A stretch of 64,000 nucleotides of DNA from Buxus sempervirens. Lineage: Eukaryota > Streptophyta > Magnoliopsida > Buxales > Buxaceae. Position numbers and translations under genes: made by a program. Under the pieces are notes generated by a model. The model had not been told where the DNA came from and did no database searches. It saw only the letters and a list, made by a program, of their open reading frames with translations. Of the stretch, positions 1 to 32,699 are shown in pieces (positions within the stretch are counted from its first letter, which is position 1; every line of letters begins with the position of its first letter). Location: NCBI GenBank assembly GCA_947561395.2, contig OX387192.1:12250221-12314220 (forward strand), in the 5' to 3' direction.

Positions 1-1448
1 TAGAATCACCAAGGTCCTAATATTGCAGATTTTATAAAAATTTCACTTTTAAAATTCCTATAAAGTCTGAACATTAACATCATGGAAGTAAAGTTGTGAT
101 GGATTAACAAATCATCTATAAAATAACAAACGCTAACTCACAAATTTGGAAATAATGTTCATACATGTATGATCGAAACCCATTGAAAATCTACATTAAC
201 CCCAAATGATGAAACTGCTACAAATGCCAGAATTGTTACAAAAACAAATGACCAAATTATCAGGCACATCCTAACAACTGAACACAGATCCTACCACTTC
301 CATAAAATTGAGAGAGAACAGCCCATAATGATATTATTGGATTGAAACAGTCCTTAATACAACTAAAGCATTCAGCAAAAAATTAGACCACAACAGCAAC
401 AACTTTTACAAAAATCCTATCACCTACATTTTGACTAAGCCAATCTAAAATGCTAAAATGCAAGAAAGGACAAATCACCCAAGGCATCACAGAGAGAGTA
501 ATAATCGAAGGATTACCTGGTTCAGACAAGTACGAATGCCTATGAAATTAATCTTTGCAGCTCTGATTCCAGAAAATGAAAGCAAGTCTATGGTCGAGCA
601 GTGAAGACAACTTGTGTAGAAGAAACAGAAACTCACTTTTGAGTTTCTCTCGTTCAGAAGATAGGACATAGGGCAAAAAGAGACGGACTGCTGCAAGTGG
701 GAGCTGCTGCAACCGATTAACACAGCAAAAGAGCAACCTTGCCGCGACAAGATGAGAAGTAGCCGTAGGTGGGGAGTTGCGACAGGAGGACGTAGGACAA
801 GGAGATGGGGTGAGAGAGCTTGCAAGACAGAGATAAAAAGAAACAGAGGCTCGTTTACAGCAGAAGAAGATCGTGAGAGAGATGCGACCAGCGAGAGATG
901 GGTTTTTTCCAGCCAAAGATCCTCCTCCTCCCCAGCAGAAAAAATCGTCCCTTTTAAAGAGTTTGGTTGCTATTTCTAGAAGAAAGAAAATCTGGAGAAA
1001 TTCGTTTGAGGGAGGTATCTTTGGAAGATTCTAAACCTAAGAGGAAGAAGAAAGAGAAGGAGAGAGGCTTTAAGATTTGAAACAAATTTGGTTTGATCGA
1101 CTGTTGAAACAGCCGATCGTGAGTTTCTAAGATTGAAAATGGTTTCAATAATTCAAGAAACTCTCTTGTTTCTCTTTCAATCTCCTTCTAATATCATGGG
1201 ATTCATTTTAGAATGATCCTCTTTGATTTTGGTTGCTAAAATAGCAAGCCATGAACACAAGAAGGAAATTTTTGTTCGTTGAGAACCAGGGGTGAAACTT
1301 TGTAAATTTAAAAAATTTTATTCCTTTCTTGTTATTTTAAAAAGTACAGGGTACAAAAATTAATTTTCAAATTTTCATTTTTCCCATGTTTTCCAACTTT
1401 TATTTCAAAAACCCCTTTTTTCTGTTTTTGCAATTAAACCTCCCAAAA
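1..1448. other. No proven gene; possible upstream part of a host gene
   Basis: No domain is recognisable here on either strand. The first 480 bases are AT-rich and look intronic when read on the minus strand. From about 490 to 1150 the minus strand is pyrimidine-rich, as plant leader sequences often are. An A/T-rich stretch with homopolymer runs covers 1300-1440. I see no transposon ends here. Confidence 0.3.
517..960 (-). other. Candidate untranslated or N-terminal leader exon
   Basis: Read on the minus strand, the segment is rich in CTCTCT and TTC runs and is open for 122 codons (916 to 548). It ends at a good splice donor (CAG followed by GTAATC, exon end at 517). Beyond the donor the sequence turns AT-rich like an intron. 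The encoded peptide resembles nothing I know, so a leader exon is more likely than a real protein. It could also be chance: no TATA box or transcript evidence can be read here. Confidence 0.15.
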
Positions 1449-2585: not shown

Positions 2586-3284
2586 CATACACGAGAATAT
2601 AGGGCATACGCCAAGTCACATACATAATAAAACAAACCCACATACATGAAGACATATACATGTCAAGAACTAGGTAACTGTGAATTTCATCTCTTTAAAC
2701 TATAGACTAGCGTTTTCAATTTCGGCGGCACACCACGAGTAGCATTTGGCTAGCGGCACGTTTCGCTAGCCGAATGCCGCTCTTTGCATTTCTCTGAGAA
2801 TGCCGATGGGTTTTGATGAAACGCATCGAAATTGCGATGCGTTTCGTCGAAACCTTTTTTTTAAAAAAATTTTAAGTTGCGCGCACGTGTGAATCACACA
2901 CGCGCGTGAAATAGACTCCTTACATTGTCGATTAGGGCAAAAATTTCGCCCAAATCGACGAAATTTCGACTAAACCAAAAAGAAGGGTTTGAGCTGTTTT
3001 TTATTTTTCTTTTTCAAATCTTGACGATTTTGGGTGAAATATGTCCCAAAGTTCATTTTTCTTCAAGATCTTGGTTCTAGAAACAATATAGGCACGATTT
3101 AGGGTGCGATTTGAGCTCATACAACATTTTTGCTTCATCTTGAAGAAGGTAAACGTCCATTTCTTGATTTCTTCTATTTTATAGCTTAAACATGTTAGAT
3201 TAAGCTGAAATTAGGATATGTTATGCTTTGGCACCTGATCTATCGATGGGTGCAGTTATTTTAATTTTTTTTCGAAAATAAATT

Positions 3285-3747
3285 TTTTTAATTATTTGTG
3301 CCGAAAATTAATTAAAAATATGGAAAAATATACAAAATACAAAAAGTATGTTATAGTTGATAAAAATTATTGTGAATTTCGTGTATTATTATCTATAAAT
3401 ATTTGTTTGAAAATTAATTTTTTTAATTATTTCTCAAGAAAATTAATTAAAAATAGGGAAAAATAATAAAAATACGAAAATCATGTTATAATTTAATAAT
3501 AATTACTGTGAATGCCATGTATAATTATCTATAATTATTTGCATGAAAATTCATTTTTTTAATTATTTCTCGTGAAAATTAATTAAAATTTAAAAAAATG
3601 GAAAAATATAAAAATAGAAAAATCATGTTATAAATTAATAAAAGTTACTATGAATGCCATGTATAATTTTCTATAGTTATTTGCACAAAACTTAATTTTT
3701 TTAATTATTTCTCACGAAATTAATTAAAAATAGGAAAAAATATAAAA
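3285..3747. repeat. AT-rich tandem array, ~136-bp unit, inside the hAT
   Basis: A motif TTTTAATTATTTCTC followed by GAAAATTAATTAAAAAT and ATCATGTTATAAATT recurs with the motif start near 3291, 3426, 3562 and 3704. A fifth copy is split off by the LINE and continues at about 10430-10560 (motif at 10518). Spacing is 135-142 bp. The array lies between the left hAT terminus and the transposase gene and was the landing site of the LINE. Confidence 0.75.
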
Positions 3748-3852
3748 TTTTTTTTATCAGTAATGAAGATTATATTAAAATGAAACTAAAATGAAACAAG
3801 ATACATTGCTGTACACCAAAGGTGTACATAACACCCACCCCCTCCACCTCCT

Positions 3853-6800
3853 CTACAATACATTGAAATCCTCACACATTAGAACATCATGATATTTCAA
3901 CCCCTTACAAGACTTCAACGCCGATGCCCAATAGAGGATAAAATTTAGCGTGTATTTGAAGAGAGCATCCCAAGACCTTTCCTTATTCTCAAAGATCCTG
4001 TTATTCCGTTCCTTCCAAACTGCCCACATCACTGCCCTCGGTGTTAACCTCCAAAAAACCTTGATAGGAGAGGCTCCTTTTGAGATCTTCCAACATGAAA
4101 GAAGATTAGATACATCTTCGGGCTGTACCCATGCTACACTAAATTTAGCTAAGAAAGCGTTCCAAATTCCACTAGTGACCGAGCAATGAATGAGAAGATG
4201 ATTAACTGTTTCCACATCATCTTTACAAAGACTGCATCTATTAGGAAGCTGCCAACCTCTTTTCATCAAATTATCCAAAGTCAAGATTTTCTCCAGCACC
4301 GCAGTGCACAAAAAGAAGCCTACCTTTGATGGGAGTAAGGGTTGCCATAACAGATTGTGGACCTTGAAGTTGAGATTTTGCTTGCTAATATACCCATAGA
4401 GGCTCTTCACAGAGAAAATCCCATCACCGCTCCTTGTCCAACTCAATAAATCCTGATGAGAATTCAACTCCTTCCCATTAATGCACTCAAGAAACTGGGT
4501 CAATTCTTCTAACTCCCAATCAAACATTCCTCTTCTGAAATGCAAGTTCCATTGTATGCATGTCTCCCACACCTTGGGAATACAGGTCTGCAACAAAGGC
4601 TTGTGGGGCTGTGGATATACTGTAAAACATAGGATATTGATCCTTAAGAACTCCACTAGAACACCAAGGGTCCAACCAAAACCTAACCCTGTCGCCCTTC
4701 CCCACCTAAAACTTAACTCCTGCCTCAACCAGAGAAGACAATCTTCATATACGCCTCCATAAACTACATCCAAGACTGCCATTCACCTGATCAAAGAACC
4801 ACCTTGCCTCATCATAACCATATTTAACCACAATTAAGTTCCTCCATAGACTATTTACCTCTTGACCAAATCTCCAGCACCACTTCACCGAGAGGGCTCT
4901 ATTGAAAAGCCGTAAGTTTCTTATTCCCAAACCACCTTCATCCTTTGGTCTACAAACCTCCTTCCAAGCTACCAAATGATACTTTTTGGACTCCTCGCCT
5001 CTTGCCCATAAAAAATTCTTCTGTAACTTTTCAATAGTCTCTAACACTGATTTTGGGGCTAATAAAACAGAGAACATATCAGTAGGATGGTTAGACAAAG
5101 AGCCCTTGATCAAAACCACCTTGCCAACTTTAGATAATGATCTCCCTTTCCAAGAGGATAGCTTCTTCTTTAACCTCGATAAAGTTGGTTCCCAAATTGA
5201 TTTAGTTTTAAAGGACACCCCAATGGGAATTCCAAGATACGTAGTGGGTAAAGACCCCAATCGACAGTCCAAAAGATCACATAAAATTGAGGTGTTTCCG
5301 CTTCCCCCAACATCAAATAGCTCACTTTTCTGTAAATTAACTCTCAAGCTCGAAAGAGCTTCAAAACAAGTCAAGATTGATCTTACCACAAGAACTTGGG
5401 AGGCTTGGTCCTTACAGAAAATCACAGCATCATCCGCAAAAAATAAATCAGATAGAGATAAAGAACCTCCTCAAAACTTCACCCCTTCAATAAGCCCCAA
5501 ATATTCCGCCCTTGCCACCAAACGACTTAGAGCCTCCATAACCAACAAGAATAGTAAGGGGGAAAGGGGATCCCCTTGTCTCAATCCCCTAGATGACCGA
5601 AAAAACCCCGTCGCCACTCCATTAACCAAAACAGAGAAAGTTGCTGAAGAGACACCTTTCCATCCACAACCTCCATCTGGCCCCAAATCCCATCCTTCTA
5701 AGAATGTACCATAAAAAATTCCAGTTCACATGGTCATACGCCTTCTCAATATCCAACTTACACATTATACCATCAACACCCTCTCGTTGAATGGAATCCA
5801 CGCATTCACTAACAATCATCACGCCATCCAAAATTTGTCTCCCCCCTATAAATGCATTTTGATATCTTGATATAACATCTGGAAGCACCACCCTCAACCT
5901 TTTAGCTAAAACTTTAGAGATTATTTTATAAAAACTCCCCACCAAGCTTATGGGCCGGTAATCTCTAAATGATGCCACCCCTTCCTTCTTAGGAATGAGG
6001 GAAATAAAAGTTGCATTCAAACTTATTTCAAAATGAGATGCATCATAGAACTCTTGAACTGCTCTCATAAAGTCAACACGGATATGCCCCCAACAAAGCT
6101 TGAAATTTTTTATTGAAAAGCCATCCGGCCCCGGGGCCTTGTCTCCTTCCATTTCCTTAATAGCCTCCAACACCTCTTCTTCACCCAAGTGCCTTTCCAA
6201 CATATCCCTATGAACATCTGAAATTAAATCAAGTTCCATGCCATCCAATAGAGGTCTTACATGTACTTTCTCTTTGAAAAGATCTTCAAAGTAAGCCGCC
6301 ATTGCCTTTTTTATGTCATCTTGCTCTAGCAAAAGAGACCCTTCCACCTCCAAGTGATCAATGGAATTTGCTCTCCCTCTAGCTGAAGCCATCTTATGGA
6401 AAAAGCCAGTATTTTTATCTCCAGAACTAAGCCATAAAGCCCTTGATTTCTGCCTCCAACTGATCTCCAATAACAATGCTGCCTTCTTGAAATCCAATTT
6501 CAAACTTCCCATCTCCTTCCACTCTTCAAATGACAGAGCCCCTTCCTCTTCAGACTTCTCTAGCTCTTTTAATCTTGCCATTATATTTTCAAGTTTCTCA
6601 TCAACTCTACCAAACACATCTCTATTCCACTCCTTATTTTTGAATTTTAGAGCTCGTAATTTTCTAGAGAACACAAAGGAGCTTGACACATTAAATTCCA
6701 TCTCCTTCCACCACTTCCCCACCAAGTCAATGAAGGACTTATCTTCAAACCACATGTTCTCAAATTTTGAGGGTGAAGCCTTATGAAACTCATTTTCGCA

Positions 6801-7530
6801 AGTGAACAATATTGGCGAGTGATCTGAAATTGATCTAGGCCAAGCAGCAGCACTAAATTTAGGAAAAGAACTCTCCCACTCCATAGAGACAAGAAATTGG
6901 TCCAATTTAGATAAGTTTCGAGAAAGCTGATATTTAGACCAAGTGAACCTAGAGCCTTTGAGAGGCACATCGATCAAATGGAAACCTTCAATAAAAGAAG
7001 AAAAATTAGACATGGCTTTGGAACAACACCTCCCTCTTGTCCTTTCTTCCGGAAATCTAGTCACATTAAAGTCTCCTCCAATACACCAAGGTGTTCCCCC
7101 TATTCCCCTTGCCTCCGATAACTCCTCCCAAATTCTACTAGACTTTTGAGTGGTCAATAGGCCCATAAACTGCCGAGAAAAGCAACAACTCCGTGATACC
7201 AGAAAGTTTCAGTGATACAGATAAGGCATAATGACCCACCTACATATGAGCTTTTAGAAATTTGTTGCTCTTCCAAGCTAGAATAATTCCACCTGAAGCT
7301 CCCTGAGACGGTAAGAAAACCCAATCTACACTATCCTCCCTCCAAATCTCCCCCAAAACAGATTTGGAAACCATGCCTAACTTCGATTCTTGAAGCATAA
7401 CTATGTCAAGGTCCCACATCCCTAGACTTGCCTTAATCCTCCCCTTCTTATCCTGGGCATTGAGCCCTCTCACATTCCAAGAAATAACTTTTAAGATCAT
7501 TAAAACCACTATGATATACCAAACCAGCAA
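3853..7530 (-). pseudogene. LINE ORF2: APE endonuclease, reverse transcriptase, zf-RVT (broken)
   Basis: The endonuclease starts near 7500 with ISWNVRGLN and keeps QESKL, GGDFNV and SDHSPI, the residues known for catalysis in the APE family. The reverse transcriptase shows [56 protein letters not shown] and the catalytic FADDAVIF near 5440. The C-terminal zf-RVT region (about 4100-4700) has CSLCKDDVETVNHLLIHC. The protein is spread over at least four frame segments (ends at 7530, 7166, 5686/5425 and 4782), so at least three frameshifts plus a stop separate them. In L1 elements the endonuclease nicks target DNA and the reverse transcriptase copies the RNA there. Confidence 0.88.
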
Positions 7531-7562
7531 CTGAACGGCCCCTCTAAAGAAATCCTTTCGAA

Positions 7563-9679
7563 TTAGGACACCTGCAAGGAGTCGCTTAGCACTCCCCTCT
7601 TACTCTCCATCTCCCTCCTTCCTTCAATTGCTGAAAATAGGGCTTGTGCCTCCCTCTCAGACCCCTGAAAAGAAACCCCAAGCACCTTGTTTTGGTTCAT
7701 GATATTGTTAGCCACCCATGCAAATGCCTCCCCATTCAAGATAGGCAAGAGAGAAAAATTCTGGTTCTCCTTGCTTAGAACAATATCATTGGTGACCGCC
7801 TTCTTCCTGTCATTATAGTGAAGGAAAAGATTCGACAAAAATTTCTCTGAAGACCCAACGCCACACTTCCTTGCAATATTTGATATTGAAACAGGAAAGG
7901 ATCCCTGATCATTGGGCTCATCGACCAAATCTCCCACCGGAATCTTGATATCCTCCTTAGCTGGGACGCATCGAGGAGGTGAAGAAAAATTATTGACCTG
8001 ATCAGATGCCACTAGAAGAGGCGAGGAAGGAAGAAGAGGGTTGGGAGAGATCTCTTCGAATAGGTTTCCAAAAACCTTTTCTTCATTATGGGAATCCAAA
8101 AGACTTTGCTTATAACCATTCCGGAACTCATCCTCTGCCAATCTACTACCGTCCATTTCCTTCCTTAGCGCCTCTACCTTCATTCTCCCAGGGGAGAGGC
8201 AATGCCTACCAAAGAACTTAGGACGACTCCTAGAGTAACAGACAACAGAGTCCTCCACTGGTCGAGGATAGACGTTCGTCGGAGGACCAAGATAATCCGC
8301 TTTAATGGTACCGCTGCCTCTAAGAAAACCATCCGAGCTCAACTCCCCTCCAATGAAACACGGCCGCCGATTGATGCTAGTCCCCTTCACCCAGTTTTCT
8401 AAATCAGAGATTCTTCCATCGATTTCTCCAAACTGACACAGAAGTGAGATAAACTTACGTTATCAGGAATTCCACCATCCGACTCTGGAATTGACGGCTT
8501 GGTCTCTCCTCTATACTACTCCAACCGATGAACACTTCACCACAGGGGTGCCGGCCTCCTCCAACAACATCTTGGGGCAAGGGGGTACCTTCATACTATC
8601 GACGATCACCTCAGAATACACTCCTTTGGACTCTCAGGAGACTTTCTGGACTTGAAGCCCATGAGTCGAACAAAATTTGCCCTCACTTTCTCCATCCCCG
8701 ACCCAACTAGGCTCACCCAACTCAGTTGAAAAGGCATGGTATGAGATTCTAACCCCTGGGTTAGTCTTCAGCAAAGAAACATCACTTGGCCCATTAACTT
8801 GGGCTCCACTATTTAGCCCAATACACTTTAAACTGCTTATGGCTACCACCTGAGCAATGGGTGAAGTGCCATCCCCAACTCCAGAAGCAAAATGCACTCC
8901 ATCTCCACCTGACTTGGCTAATCTAACAAAATCCCCATTCTGCCCTTGCCCAAGACCACTATTAGCCTACCAAGGCATGCCACGAAGGTCGCCTTCAACT
9001 TTTGAACATTCCTCCTTCTGAAGCCCGATGGATTTCAATGAAATAGAGTCCTCGAAAACCAAATCAACATATATCTCGAACCATTCCTTCCCATCCCAAA
9101 CATCCAGACATCTGGGAATTCTACGCGCAAGCAACTCCCCCACTTTCATTCGAATAGCTCCATCAAGATCTAAACCTCCCATCTTTTTTATGCCTTTCAT
9201 CTCATACGACAAATGCTCCCAAGCGTCAAATCTATACTTCCACCTAGAAACTTCATCAGCCAAAGGGAAGAAAACTGAAGCGCCCCGCCCAGCAATAAAC
9301 GAAACAGAGATGACCAACAATCTGCCTCTCTTATTAACAGGAGCTTTGCAGAAAACATTAAGTCCCCTATCTTCAACCGACCCAAAAAACCAACCATTCG
9401 AGAGAAATTTTACGCCTTTTCCACAACTTTTAGGAACCAATGAACATCACTGCCCTTGAACTGAACCCAGGGGGAAAACTTCCTAGATTTCTCAACTATG
9501 CGGAGAGTGACTCCCTGATTCTCGGAAGCTCTAAAGAATAAGAAGGATTTCCTCTCAATCAAAACCAACTTCTTAGCCACCTCCACAGAGCTATTCGACT
9601 TCAAATGTGGACGACGTCCCACACCCACTGAATTTGTATTGCAAACAACTTCAGCGTAAGAGGGAGGGCCTCTTGCCAT
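7563..9679 (-). pseudogene. LINE ORF1 (DUF4283-like RNA-binding protein), broken
   Basis: The start at 9679 (MARGPPSYAEVV) resembles the N terminus of plant L1 ORF1 proteins, which lead into a DUF4283 domain. Segments at 9679-9410 and 9440-8967 carry that region, and the last of them reads LDLDGAIRMKVGELL. A hydrophilic, low-conservation tail follows (8390-7563). No CCHC zinc knuckle is clear. ORF1 of plant L1 elements is thought to bind the element RNA. The reading frame changes at least twice, so this copy is not expected to make a whole protein. Confidence 0.65.
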
Positions 9680-10069
9680 AATCTTCTAAGATAGCGGAGC
9701 CCCCTCCCGAACTGCTTCCAGGACCCCCTTACGCTCCGAATGACATTCCACCACAGGGGAGACATCAACTTGACTCAGGCTAGTCTGAACAGCCAGAAGA
9801 ATTTCATGAGACGAATAACCTGCGGACTTGAGATCTCTACATATCAATTGCAGATTGCCGGACTTGATTACTACCCGGTAGTAATACCAGGATACTTAAA
9901 AAAGACACTATTTGCCACGAAACTCCAAATCACTCAACTCCAGTAAAACGAAAACCCCTACCTCCTCCGCGAACGAGAAAACACTCAAAGGCGAGACACA
10001 ATCGCTGATGCAAAAACACAACTCTCCAAGAAAATGGCCACCGTTAGCGGAGGAAGAAAGCTTAGCTAG

Positions 10070-10297
10070 AAAACGACCCTTCGAAACCCCTTCGCCACCC
10101 CTCAACAGACCCTTCAACAGACGCCTTCGAAATCTCTTCAACAGTCGCCTTCGATGATCTCACGATAGTCGCCTTCGAGAACCTCACGACAAAATGCTGT
10201 CAACAAACGCCTCCGACAACCCCTTCGACAATCGCCTTTGAAAACGCCTCCGAGAACCCCTCCGAAAACCCCTCTAAGAACCCCTCTAAAAGTGGAT
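10070..10297 (-). repeat. LINE 5' UTR of short CGAAGG/GGAGGGGTT repeats
   Basis: Just downstream of the 5S sequence the minus strand is a run of imperfect short repeats such as GAGGGGTTC, TCGGAGGCG and TCGAAGGCGA at about 15-25 bp spacing. A comparable CGAAGG-rich leader occurs in the LINE at 44943-45410. Repeated leaders of this kind are known in several LINE families and may carry promoter activity; no function can be proven here. Confidence 0.6.
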
Positions 10298-10417
10298 GGG
10301 GGTGCAACACGAGGACTTCTCAGGAGGTCACCCATCCTAGTACTACTCTTGCCCAAGCACGCTTAACTTCGGAGTTCTGATGGGATCCGGTGCACTAGTG
10401 ATGGTATGACCGCACCC
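10298..10417 (-). rRNA. 5S rRNA sequence, 120 bp, fused to the LINE 5' end
   Basis: On the minus strand the sequence starts GGGTGCGGTCATACC and ends TCGTGTTGCACCCC, the whole length of plant 5S rRNA. The internal promoter blocks are present: GTTAAGCGTGCTTGGGC (box A), GTAGTACTAGG around the intermediate element, and GGATGGGTGACCTCCTG (box C). Only a few bases differ from the usual plant sequence. No T-run terminator follows immediately; the LINE leader begins at once. The 5S +1 base is the first base of the insertion. It is probably a retrocopied passenger or a captured promoter rather than a working ribosomal gene. Confidence 0.9.
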
Positions 10418-10670
10418 TAAAAAATATTAAAAAAAAAAAACAAAAATCATGTTATAAATTAGTAAAAACAAATGTGAATGCCATGTATAATTATTTGTAT
10501 GAAAATTATTATTTTTAATTATTTCTCACGAAAATTAATTATTAATTATTAATTTGTTTTGTACTGTATTCGCCTCTAACATTATAAGTTTGTTTTGTAA
10601 CTAAACTGTTGTTGGTATTTTATTTGTACGTTGTGCAGGTGATTGTTAATTGTTACTGTATTGATCTGGT

Positions 10671-13600
10671 ATGACTTCTGGTTCTGGCACTGGCAATGGA
10701 GGTGACTAGCAGGGTCGCAGGCTAGATATTGGCTGGAGGCACTATAAGAAAGTGGATGGGGATAGAAATAAGACGGAATGCAACAATTGTGGCCAACAAT
10801 TTAAGGGTGATGGGATTTCACAGTTGAAGTAACACCTAGCACATGGCTACAGAAATGTAATCAACTGTCTAAGAGTACCTCCAGATGTAAAAAAACAAAT
10901 GCAAGAACATCTACACACAGGGATGACTGGCCGGCAGGAGAAGATTGCCATAGAGCATGAGATCAAACGCAGGCTAGGGAAGCCTGCACGACCACCTGCT
11001 GGGGGTGAGGATTCAGATAATGACATTGTCTACCCTGCTGATATGGTGACTGAGGCAGAGAGGGCCGCCTTTCGAGCTAGTGTTCGAGATTCTTTACGGG
11101 ATGAGTATGAGAGGAGGGAGAGCCACAGATTGGGCTTGGAGAGGGGTGGTTACTCAGGAGGTGATCATGGTAGCTATGCTGAAGGTTCAGGGCATAGGGC
11201 TGAGCCTGCATTAGGGCGGACACAGAGTACGAGGATGCCAGACTACCCTATGGAGCCCCAGTTATATCATTCTTCTTGATCGAAACAGAAGAGACTTAGA
11301 GATGTTTGGAGCAAAGGATCACTAAAGGAGAGAATGGGAAAATACATATAAAAAATTTTCATTTTTAATCACATCCCAGCAAATGCAGTGGCATCTCCTC
11401 ACTTTAAGAACATGGTAGACACTATTCAGGAGGCGGGTCTAGGAGTGCAACCACCTACACCCCATGACATTATGGGTAAATATCTGGATGAGGAGGAGCA
11501 GGAGATGAGAGATTTTATTGCATCCCTACGACCTCATTAGAAGCAGTTCGGGGTGACCATTATGTGTGATGGTTGGATAGGTCCTACTAGAATGTCCATC
11601 ATCAACTTCATGGTATACTGTAGAGGGAAGACAATATTCTTGAAGTCAGTGGACGCATCAGATAAAATAAAGGAAGCAGAGTATATAGAACGGTTACTTG
11701 AGGAGGTCATGGCTAAGGTTGGTGCACAGTATGTGGTCCAAATTGTCACAAATAATGGAAGCAATTATAAGAAGGCTGGGAAGATCATACATGAAAAATA
11801 TAGTATATATTAGACACCGTGTGCGGCACATTGTATTGACTTGATGTTGGAGGCGATTGCATAGAGGAGCATAGTACTCAGTGTTCTACGAGATGCTCGA
11901 GCCCTGACTACATTTGTCTACAACCACAACTTTGTACTATTAAAGATGAGAGAGATATGTGGTGAAGACATAGTTCGGCCTAATATTACCAGATTTGGCA
12001 CGTAATACATTGCCCTAGAGAGTTTTTTGAAGCATCGGGCTGGATTGAGGACACTTTTTACTAATCAGGATTGGTGTAGTTCCTCTCATAACAGAACGGC
12101 AGCAGGCAGGAGAGTCGAGGACATTGTATTGTCTAGTAAATTTTGGGATGATGTCTGACCATTGTGGGATATTTGGAGCCTATGTACCGTGTATTGAGGA
12201 TTGTTGATACGGATGCCTATCCCACGATAGGGTCCATATATAAGTGCATAAGAGTCATGAAGGCCCAGATTATGAATGCACAGTTGACTCGTACCAATGG
12301 GTGCACAAGATTATTAATGCGAGATGGACCAAGACTTTGTTGCATCCCTTACATACGGTTGGTAAGTATGAAGAAACTTTATGCTTTATTGCATTTATGT
12401 TATAGTTTGTTAATTGTCGTTATACTAAAATTTTCCTTTCATGCAACATACTATCTAAACCCCAAGTATCACTACAAGCACCAGATTGACACGAATCCTG
12501 AGTTATGTAGCACAGTGCATCAAGTATTTATGAAGTTGGATCCTAATTCGGATGCGACTAGCAGGTTCGGAAATGAGGTAGGATTAAGAATAGGATACTT
12601 GTTAAATATAAGTCCTCACTGTAATTAGTATTTATTAAATAATAAATACTAACATTTAAGTTTGGTTTTCCAGTTGATAATATTTAGAGATGCATTGGGG
12701 TCATTCGGGTTGACCACAGCGGTTGCATTGAAGGACACGATGATGCCGTGTAAGTAACTTCATAACAAATGATGTCATTAACCTTTATATGAATAAATTT
12801 GATATTTTCTGATAAACTATTGTTGTTTTTTCGGATCACAGGTGAGTGGTGGGCGATGTACGGGTGCGATGCGCCTACTTTGCGCAAGTTGGCAGCTAAG
12901 ATCCTAGCTCAAATGGCATCTTATTCTGCATGTGAGCGGAATTGGAGCACATTTGCTCTTATTCATACGAAGCAGAGGAACAAATTGGCATACGCCAGAT
13001 TGAAGAAGCTCGTATTTTGTCATTACAATATGAAGCTACGGACGAAGAAGCTATAGATTGAGCATCGTACTACGCCCATCAAAGATCAGTATTATTCAGC
13101 AATGAGATTGACGAAGAGGATCCCTTTTCAGAGTGGGTTAGATGTACTTCCGAGATGGACGAGCCAGATGGTGGACTTAACCCAGTCATCGTCCGTGCAG
13201 CTGTAAATATGGGCATAAATGTTGATGCTGTCATGGAGGAGGAGAGGGGGGAGGACAGCGGAGACTCATTCGATCGATTGCTTAGGGTTGTTCCCCCCTC
13301 AGTTTCAGCAGCACCATCACAAACAGCCCCTGCTCCTGCCTCATCCTCACGAGCACATGATGATGATAGTGATGAGTCAGACAACGACGACGACGACAAT
13401 GATGATGATGATGCCACACAGGGCGATGTTGCTGGCAGTAGTGCCCAAGGTTTGAGTTTGTTTACTGGAGAGGAGGGATACGATCATGCCACGTAGGACC
13501 GAGACCATGGGGTTAGGAGGGACACTGGTACGAGTGCGACACCAACACAGACATTCTGGATGAGGGACAAAGGAAAGCATTATACCGGTGGACGAGTCCT

Positions 13601-32574: not shown

Positions 32575-32699
32575 ATTCTTGTGTAATTTGTTTCTTGGAA
32601 TTAATATACAGGTCAGGGTCTGCCTCAACCCTCCTCCCACCGTTGGAGTGCCACTAAGGTTATTCCTGCCTTAGTGGGTTTTCTTTAAAAAAAAAAAAA
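30925..32699 (+). mobile_element. 5'-truncated LINE with zf-RVT and RNase H
   Basis: It starts inside the region after the reverse transcriptase (KMGWKALHGYSLWSDFMRAKYC; SFWFDHWS), then a zf-RVT segment with MCSQCNCCSNQRIESLNHLF (31560). The C-terminal RNase H (32020-32420) has ILNVDGASKGNPGISGGGG, LLAELFPLRDGL, VIESDSKVFVD and EANTVADALANEG, so all four acidic positions are present. The frame from 31511 to 32500 is open for 329 codons; a frame change and a stop lie upstream. The 3' UTR has a run of 29 C (32543-32571) and ends in poly(A) at 32687-32699. It is antisense to the kinase gene. Confidence 0.85.

Follow-up and report, generated by a model that had tools for sequence, protein, structure and literature searches.

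Template switching has been called an ancient property of LINEs (PMC4476161), and template jumping by these elements has been reported for mammals, birds and a fungus. Human U6/L1 chimeras are sense and full length; in human 5S/L1 chimeras, of which 27 insertions are described, the 5S is typically truncated, antisense and joined by its start, and a target-site duplication (TSD) lies outside in 20 of the 27 (PMC13174262). In Magnaporthe, MINE and WEIRD-MGL elements stem from LINE template jumps, double jumps included, and the partner is a 1.1-kb RNA, WEIRD (PMC2104539). The 5S sequence is also found within Cassandra TRIMs (PMC10886601) and SINE3 elements (PMC10853983), propagating families in which it serves as promoter.

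Here, we analyzed a complete 5S rRNA sequence at the 5' end of an L1-type LINE in Buxus sempervirens. Like the mammalian U6/L1 chimeras (PMC4476161, PMC13174262), it consists of a complete pol III RNA placed in sense at a LINE 5' end, with one outer TSD and separate events behind the individual cases; unlike them, as far as they are described, the partner is a 5S with an uncut trailer, the host is a plant and the LINE keeps its 5' UTR. It shares with the human 5S/L1 chimeras (PMC13174262) the two kinds of RNA fused and the TSD outside, but its 5S is sense and complete and has its 3' end at the joint. The likeness to MINE and WEIRD-MGL (PMC2104539) would lie in LINE template jumps, tripartite double jumps too, whereas the partner there is WEIRD and the LINE fungal. 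Cassandra and SINE3 likewise hold 5S sequence within a retroelement, but the element described here was found once. It ends in poly(A) and has a LINE-type reverse transcriptase (RT) and zf-RVT instead of the two 5S-holding LTRs of Cassandra, and it measures 6.5 kb, whereas SINE3 is a short multicopy family with a 5S head and a LINE tail. The full-text literature searched, which lacks most subscription journals, yielded no plant LINE/5S composite. Most likely, the finding is a plant, sense-5S form of the known template-switch chimeras, in which 5S would, by analogy, behave as U6 does in mammals.

The 5S copy and its joint with the LINE

The window is the whole stretch of 64,000 nucleotides that was analyzed (G000:C15:12250221-12314220), and searches covered the genome of 676.5 Mb in 247 contigs. 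The composite and its surroundings comprise the following features.

3274..3747, no strand: 142-nt tandem repeat broken by the insertion, resuming past 10432 (repeat comparison)
3735..3747, no strand: TSD on the LINE 3' side, AAAAAATATAAAA (flank comparison)
3748..3755, minus strand: LINE poly(A) tail, T8 on the plus strand, after the family 3' end TCATTACYGAT (sequence)
3748..10287, minus strand: L1-type LINE, decayed, with full 3' end and 5' UTR present (Pfam, RT structure match, genome-wide relatives)
3853..7599, minus strand: ORF2 remains with endonuclease, reverse transcriptase and zf-RVT, frameshifted (ORF fragments and Pfam)
7563..9895, minus strand: ORF1 remains in pieces (ORF fragments)
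9932..10287, minus strand: part of the LINE 5' UTR, imperfect 12-25 nt tandem repeats (genome searches)
10288..10298, minus strand: 5S gene 3' trailer CATCCACTTTT with T4 pol III terminator (similar trailer after C19 array 5S genes)
10299..10417, minus strand: complete 5S rRNA copy, 119 nt (Rfam RF00001 and comparison with array genes)
10418, minus strand: additional A separating 5S position 1 from the TSD (array genes also have A at -1)
10419..10432, no strand: TSD copy outside the 5S, AAAAAATATTAAAA, one indel (flank comparison)

The 5S at 10299-10417 was the sole RNA above the Rfam threshold in the window (RF00001; 102.3 bits; E, 3e-21; model positions 1 to 120 of 120), which excludes a chance match, and 4 of its 119 positions (8, 17, 68 and 98) deviate from the array gene sequence. 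In nearly all copies inspected, the tandem 5S genes of contig C19 read C[G/A]TCCACTCTTTT, then [G/T]CCAAACG; in the window, CATCCACTTTT comes after the 5S and leads into the LINE 5' UTR. The T4 run occupies 10288-10291 on the minus strand, at the same place as a T4 or T5 in the array genes, and the junction falls at 10287/10288 with no linker between the two transcript copies. This trailer is unlike the commonest array trailer, and a similar form occurs in four of the composites described below (L074, L075, L095 and L096). Since it ends in the T4 terminator, beyond the end of the mature RNA, the template was an unprocessed 5S transcript. The first-pass annotation had placed the 5S in sense at the LINE 5' end, which the shared strand (Rfam and Pfam) and the direct joint bear out; its limits for the 5S were right to within the 11-nt trailer, as 10288-10298 also belongs to the 5S part. 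Annotators could mistake such a copy for a 5S gene or for a pol III-driven LINE.

An A precedes 5S position 1 at 10 of 10 non-array places of our first pattern search (three of them, on C1, having one origin), as in the array genes, and it falls outside the TSD in the window and in L043. The 5S transcript may start at this -1 A.

The LINE is about 6.5 kb long. Its ORF2 fragments match Exo_endo_phos (0.00038, under the curated cut-off), RVT_1 (5.7e-15) and zf-RVT (1.4e-22) in Pfam, and human LINE-1 ORF2p was the best match of the RT fragment among solved structures (E, 2.3e-17). Judged from its sequence, the element is an L1-type plant LINE with endonuclease, RT of L1 type and zf-RVT, the endonuclease match being below cut-off. 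A 91-amino-acid piece of ORF1 had at least 78 matches in the genome, the window itself included, the best others being 72% identical; three ORF1 pieces had no Pfam match at 0.001, nor did two of these at 1. The 5' UTR part at 9932-10287 had no match elsewhere in the genome at the sensitivity of the search used.

The insertion site

The first-pass annotation had described an interrupted tandem repeat that resumes beyond the insertion and a probable TSD lying outside the 5S, and it had considered a joint arrival of 5S and LINE very likely. The repeat unit measures 142 nt and picks up after 10432. The TSD is 13 to 14 nt with one indel, in A-rich DNA. An equal match was obtained in 228 of 6,000 random pairs from the same A/T-rich repeats (ca. 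4%). Three offsets were tried for the observed match and the best was taken, against a single offset in the control, so that the fair rate is perhaps up to three times higher (ca. 11%). Taken alone, the duplication proves little. The uninterrupted repeat units back it, since the host repeat is multicopy and these units hold the A/T stretch once. Rejoining the window flanks gives a linker of 51 nt with one A/T copy and of 66 nt with both. Among 15 linkers measured (from five of six fetched repeat loci and the left flank of the window, L123 yielding none), 13 were 38 to 53 nt; for the other two (58 and 66), counting began at an additional motif upstream. The one-copy linker falls within the range of 38 to 53 nt, which supports a TSD lying outside the 5S. 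In one unit, L126, the sequence resembles that expected of the empty site except for the length and purity of its A-run. Neither poly(A) nor a TSD separates 5S and LINE, so that a single duplication around both parts and a joint with neither tail nor duplication uphold their arrival in one event.

Behind the 142-nt A/T-rich tandem repeats, at 10660-11000, lies a hAT-like element with a BED-type finger (by eye). Element and repeats are multicopy, with at least 153 matches counted (40 of 341 candidates scored).

Other 5S composites in the genome

Non-array 5S sequences were searched for with two patterns. The first found 75 places, 65 within the C19 array block and 10 elsewhere, and the second found 14, none on C19; six were common to both. 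With C1:63749112 and C14:31008917 added, this gave 20 places, and we read 19, all except C1:30307478. The places at 30.22, 30.26 and 30.31 Mb of C1 have a common flank and one origin. L045 and L098 are rearranged and were excluded from the composites.

The same 5S 3' end was found joined in sense to several kinds of partner, namely, different LINE bodies, SINE-like bodies and short tails, and one such 5S lies behind a U6; the sense orientation holds among the identified cases, antisense joints being outside the systematic search. Two composites likewise carry 5S at the 5' end of a LINE. L012 has the 3' part of a 5S on a long relative of the window LINE (joint, TTTTT/GGGGG), and in L048, the 5S is joined at the 5' UTR of another LINE, whose 3' end lies outside the fetched stretch. 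The 5S parts of L012 and L099 scored below the Rfam cut-off (26.8 of 38 and 31.7, respectively). A query with the ORF1 of L048 had at least 150 matches (150 of 1,210 candidates scored) and a weak DUF4283 hit under the cut-off.

In L049, L074 and L076, the body behind the 5S is a 5'-truncated LINE with zf-RVT. L074 has a double joint, 5S-5S-LINE, with 5S positions 23 to 41 ahead of a complete 5S. L076 is interrupted by a second LINE, with flanks sharing AAAGTGCTTGTGTCCT (by eye); the 5S-joined body alone matches zf-RVT (1.1e-11), and the second LINE has a zf-RVT match of its own. In L096, the 5S is joined to a GC-rich sequence that we do not count among the LINE bodies. L095 and L099 have bodies that are 73% alike and that we call SINE-like on the grounds of their length, their poly(A) and the copy number of L099 (multicopy; 40 copies scored of 1,176 candidates), with a tRNA look by eye; neither ARAGORN nor Rfam found a tRNA in these two bodies.

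The remaining composites consist of 5S, a short tail and poly(A) (L003/L043/L044, L046, L047, L075 and L097) or have 98 nt behind the 5S (L073). The 98-nt body is a dispersed repeat, given that it has a 93% match at 32601-32699 of the window. By eye, TTCATTACC-An or TTACCTTCC-An in some of the short tails is similar to the 3' ends of LINEs. We considered a 5S-headed SINE family for L002, L003, L046, L047 and L075 and set it aside as less likely; their tails differ, which argues for separate events.

In L043, L046, L047 and L075, the tail between 5S and poly(A) is ca. 15 to 20 nt and varies, and L046 and L047 contain a second, partial 5S. These four copies look like SINEs at birth. In layout alone, L046 and L075 resemble SINE3.

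For 12 composites whose far end was available (ten contain 5S, whereas L106 and L112 have U6 alone), a script compared the 32 nt preceding the RNA with the poly(A) region and took the best repeat shared by the two; L012, L045, L076, L096 and L098 were outside this test. In 10 of the 12, RNA, body and poly(A) lie between repeats of 7 to 17 nt. The shortest, in L049 and L074 (7 nt each) and L112 (8 nt), could have arisen by chance, and A's at the start of a repeat may be part of the tail; the others measure 11 nt (L046), 12 nt (L099), 15 nt (L075, and L095 with one mismatch), 16 nt (L106, and L002 with one mismatch) and 17 nt (L043). The repeat ends 5 to 13 nt ahead of the assumed RNA start in L095, L046, L002 and L106. 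L097 gave no repeat and L073 an A-run only, leaving 2 of 12 without a convincing TSD. By eye, L012 showed no clear duplication, and an earlier script found no exact repeat of at least 9 nt in the stretches fetched for L047 and L048, the latter stopping short of the 3' end. At L049, the reading frame of the host LINE continues past the insert (by eye).

U6 and tRNA-like partners

The U6 search scored 48 of 65,992 candidates and listed 47, of which 14 were fetched and read. In L002 (1404-1627), a complete 5S directly follows a U6 copy and is itself followed by a short tail and A9; a near-perfect repeat of 16 nt flanks the unit, and the whole looks like a U6-5S double jump. L106 and L112 consist of U6, a short body (86 nt in L106) and poly(A). 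L107 has GC-rich tandem repeats behind a U6 with a terminal T run. We claim no kinship of these repeats with the L048 5' UTR, as the same-strand matches are short and weak (57 nt at 81% and 122 nt at 69%); the stronger matches fall on the opposite strand, upstream of the L048 5S. Six further loci (L103, L104, L105, L108, L110 and L111) have U6 without poly(A), several of them being 3' truncated and flanked by direct repeats (by eye), and look like tailless retropseudogenes.

The nearest relative of L048 by ORF1 among the matches listed (94%) is L116. Just ahead of its 5' UTR repeats, where L048 has the 5S, L116 has a tRNA-like sequence (1207-1278, minus strand; Rfam, 37.2 bits with a cut-off of 29), and ARAGORN found no tRNA in nine loci, L116 included. 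Different RNAs before related LINEs are predicted by template jumping and not by promoter capture, a point that rests on this one pair.

Copies of the window LINE

The first-pass annotation had proposed a search with a probe across the joint, in which many copies with the same junction would speak for a 5S promoter at the family level and a single copy for template switching. Our 301-nt joint probe had at least 81 matches (40 of 712 candidates scored, the counts being lower bounds), and all except the window's own start at probe positions 88 to 93, that is, at window position 10287 or further out. No second copy of the 5S/LINE junction was found among the matches scored genome-wide. A probe of 9600-10297 matched four places, the window and three relatives that match probe positions 1 to 337 only (74 to 77%); among these four, the window alone covers the outer part past ca. 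9937.

Similarly, 5S was detected by blastn in the 5' flank of 1 of 21 ORF1-bearing relatives (L010 to L012 and L077 to L094), namely, L012, where it is truncated and has a different joint. The other 20 had no 5S within the stretch fetched, the 5' UTR repeats reaching or nearing the edge of that stretch in at least five of the 21 (L085, L090, L091, L093 and L094). Ten copies (L014 to L023) are 91 to 94% identical to the window LINE at the 3' end; the longest, on C10, was traced to window position 8231, L022 and L023 were followed to about 5900 only, and none of the ten adjoins a close ORF1 match. The window thus has the only 5' end found for its own close subfamily. As no second copy shows where the RNA of this subfamily normally starts, a jump at the exact 5' end looks the same as a jump within the 5' UTR.

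Origin of the composite

We consider it very probable that the composite arose in one retrotransposition event, with a template switch from the LINE RNA to a nascent 5S RNA during target-primed reverse transcription. The first-pass annotation had offered a switch to a 5S rRNA as one of two readings, and it is favored by the junction found once, the unprocessed 3' end, the one outer duplication and the other 5S and U6 composites. The L1-type LINE would have nicked the A/T-rich repeat, and, to judge from the anatomy of the element and the L1 pathway, reverse transcription would have started at the poly(A) of the LINE RNA itself. The RT would then have copied this RNA as far as its 5' end, or halted close by, before switching to an unprocessed nuclear 5S transcript at its oligo(U) 3' end and probably copying the 5S fully to its first base, as suggested by the 3' trailer, the sense orientation and the completeness of the 5S at its 5' end. 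Joining of the second end outside the 5S would enclose both parts in a single target duplication. The resulting composite is a one-off, and nothing points to a function.

A live rival, although an improbable one, is ligation before reverse transcription, in which the 5' end of the LINE RNA receives a 5S transcript by ligation and reverse transcription of the finished chimera involves no jump. This route is named for human U6/L1 (PMC13174262). The unprocessed 3' end at the joint fits ligation and jumping equally. Partners such as 5'-truncated LINE bodies and tails of ca. 15 to 20 nt, however, would imply that the LINE RNA had been cleaved in every such case. RtcB requires a 2',3'-cyclic phosphate for ligation, and a fresh pol III 3' end is not known to carry this group, which also counts against this route.

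Less credible than ligation is the other reading of the first-pass annotation, in which the LINE family, by analogy with Cassandra, captured the 5S as a pol III promoter. A 5S with 4 changes in 119 positions and the presence of 5S at the LINE 5' ends of L012 and L048 would fit a working promoter, and we stop short of calling capture impossible because the 5' end of the subfamily is known from the window copy only. The copy survey and the terminator do not support it. No shared junction was found among the matches scored, the one 5S among the 21 relatives is truncated and differently joined, and 0 of 7 L048 relatives had 5S or U6 in the stretch fetched. Moreover, a T4 run, as at the ends of array genes, separates 5S and LINE, which makes pol III entry into the LINE unlikely, and no array-type upstream element was seen by eye at the window 5S.

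Two events, a 5S retrocopy inserted beside the LINE or later hit by it, are least probable of all: stand-alone 5S retrocopies with poly(A) and TSD do exist (L043 and L075) and L045 looks like a 5S copy struck by a later sequence, but the window joint, where the LINE follows the 5S terminator without an intervening base, has no tail or duplication of an independent 5S insertion, and the same type of joint recurs on other bodies.

Choice of the second template

With template switching as the preferred origin, more than a dozen 5S composites, together with U6 and possibly tRNA, in one plant genome make a rule for the choice of the second template testable, namely, that the joint lies at or near the oligo(U) end of an unprocessed pol III RNA. 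They also suggest a concrete route for the origin of small-RNA-headed elements. A tentative extension, which we regard as possible but somewhat doubtful, is that plant L1-type RTs prefer to jump to unprocessed pol III RNAs, at their oligo(U) 3' ends, with 5S pre-rRNA taking the role of mammalian U6. The composites would then form a continuous series, from 5S with a LINE that keeps its 5' UTR, through 5S with a truncated LINE, to 5S with a tail of ca. 15 to 20 nt and poly(A), and if this were true, the series would be a snapshot of the birth of 5S-headed SINEs and perhaps of the 5S part of Cassandra.

The LINE clade of L048 has a distribution of its own. Most of the 150 matches listed lie in one block of ca. 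1 to 2 Mb per large contig, among them C1 at 30.0 to 30.7 Mb, C3 at 30.1 to 31.1, C4 at 36.7 to 37.5, C6 at 29.3 to 30.9, C9 at 15.5 to 16.6, C12 at 5.8 to 7.2, C14 at 29.9 to 30.9 and others, with two blocks on C11 and a few matches elsewhere. These blocks are patterned as those of a putative centromere-restricted LINE would be.
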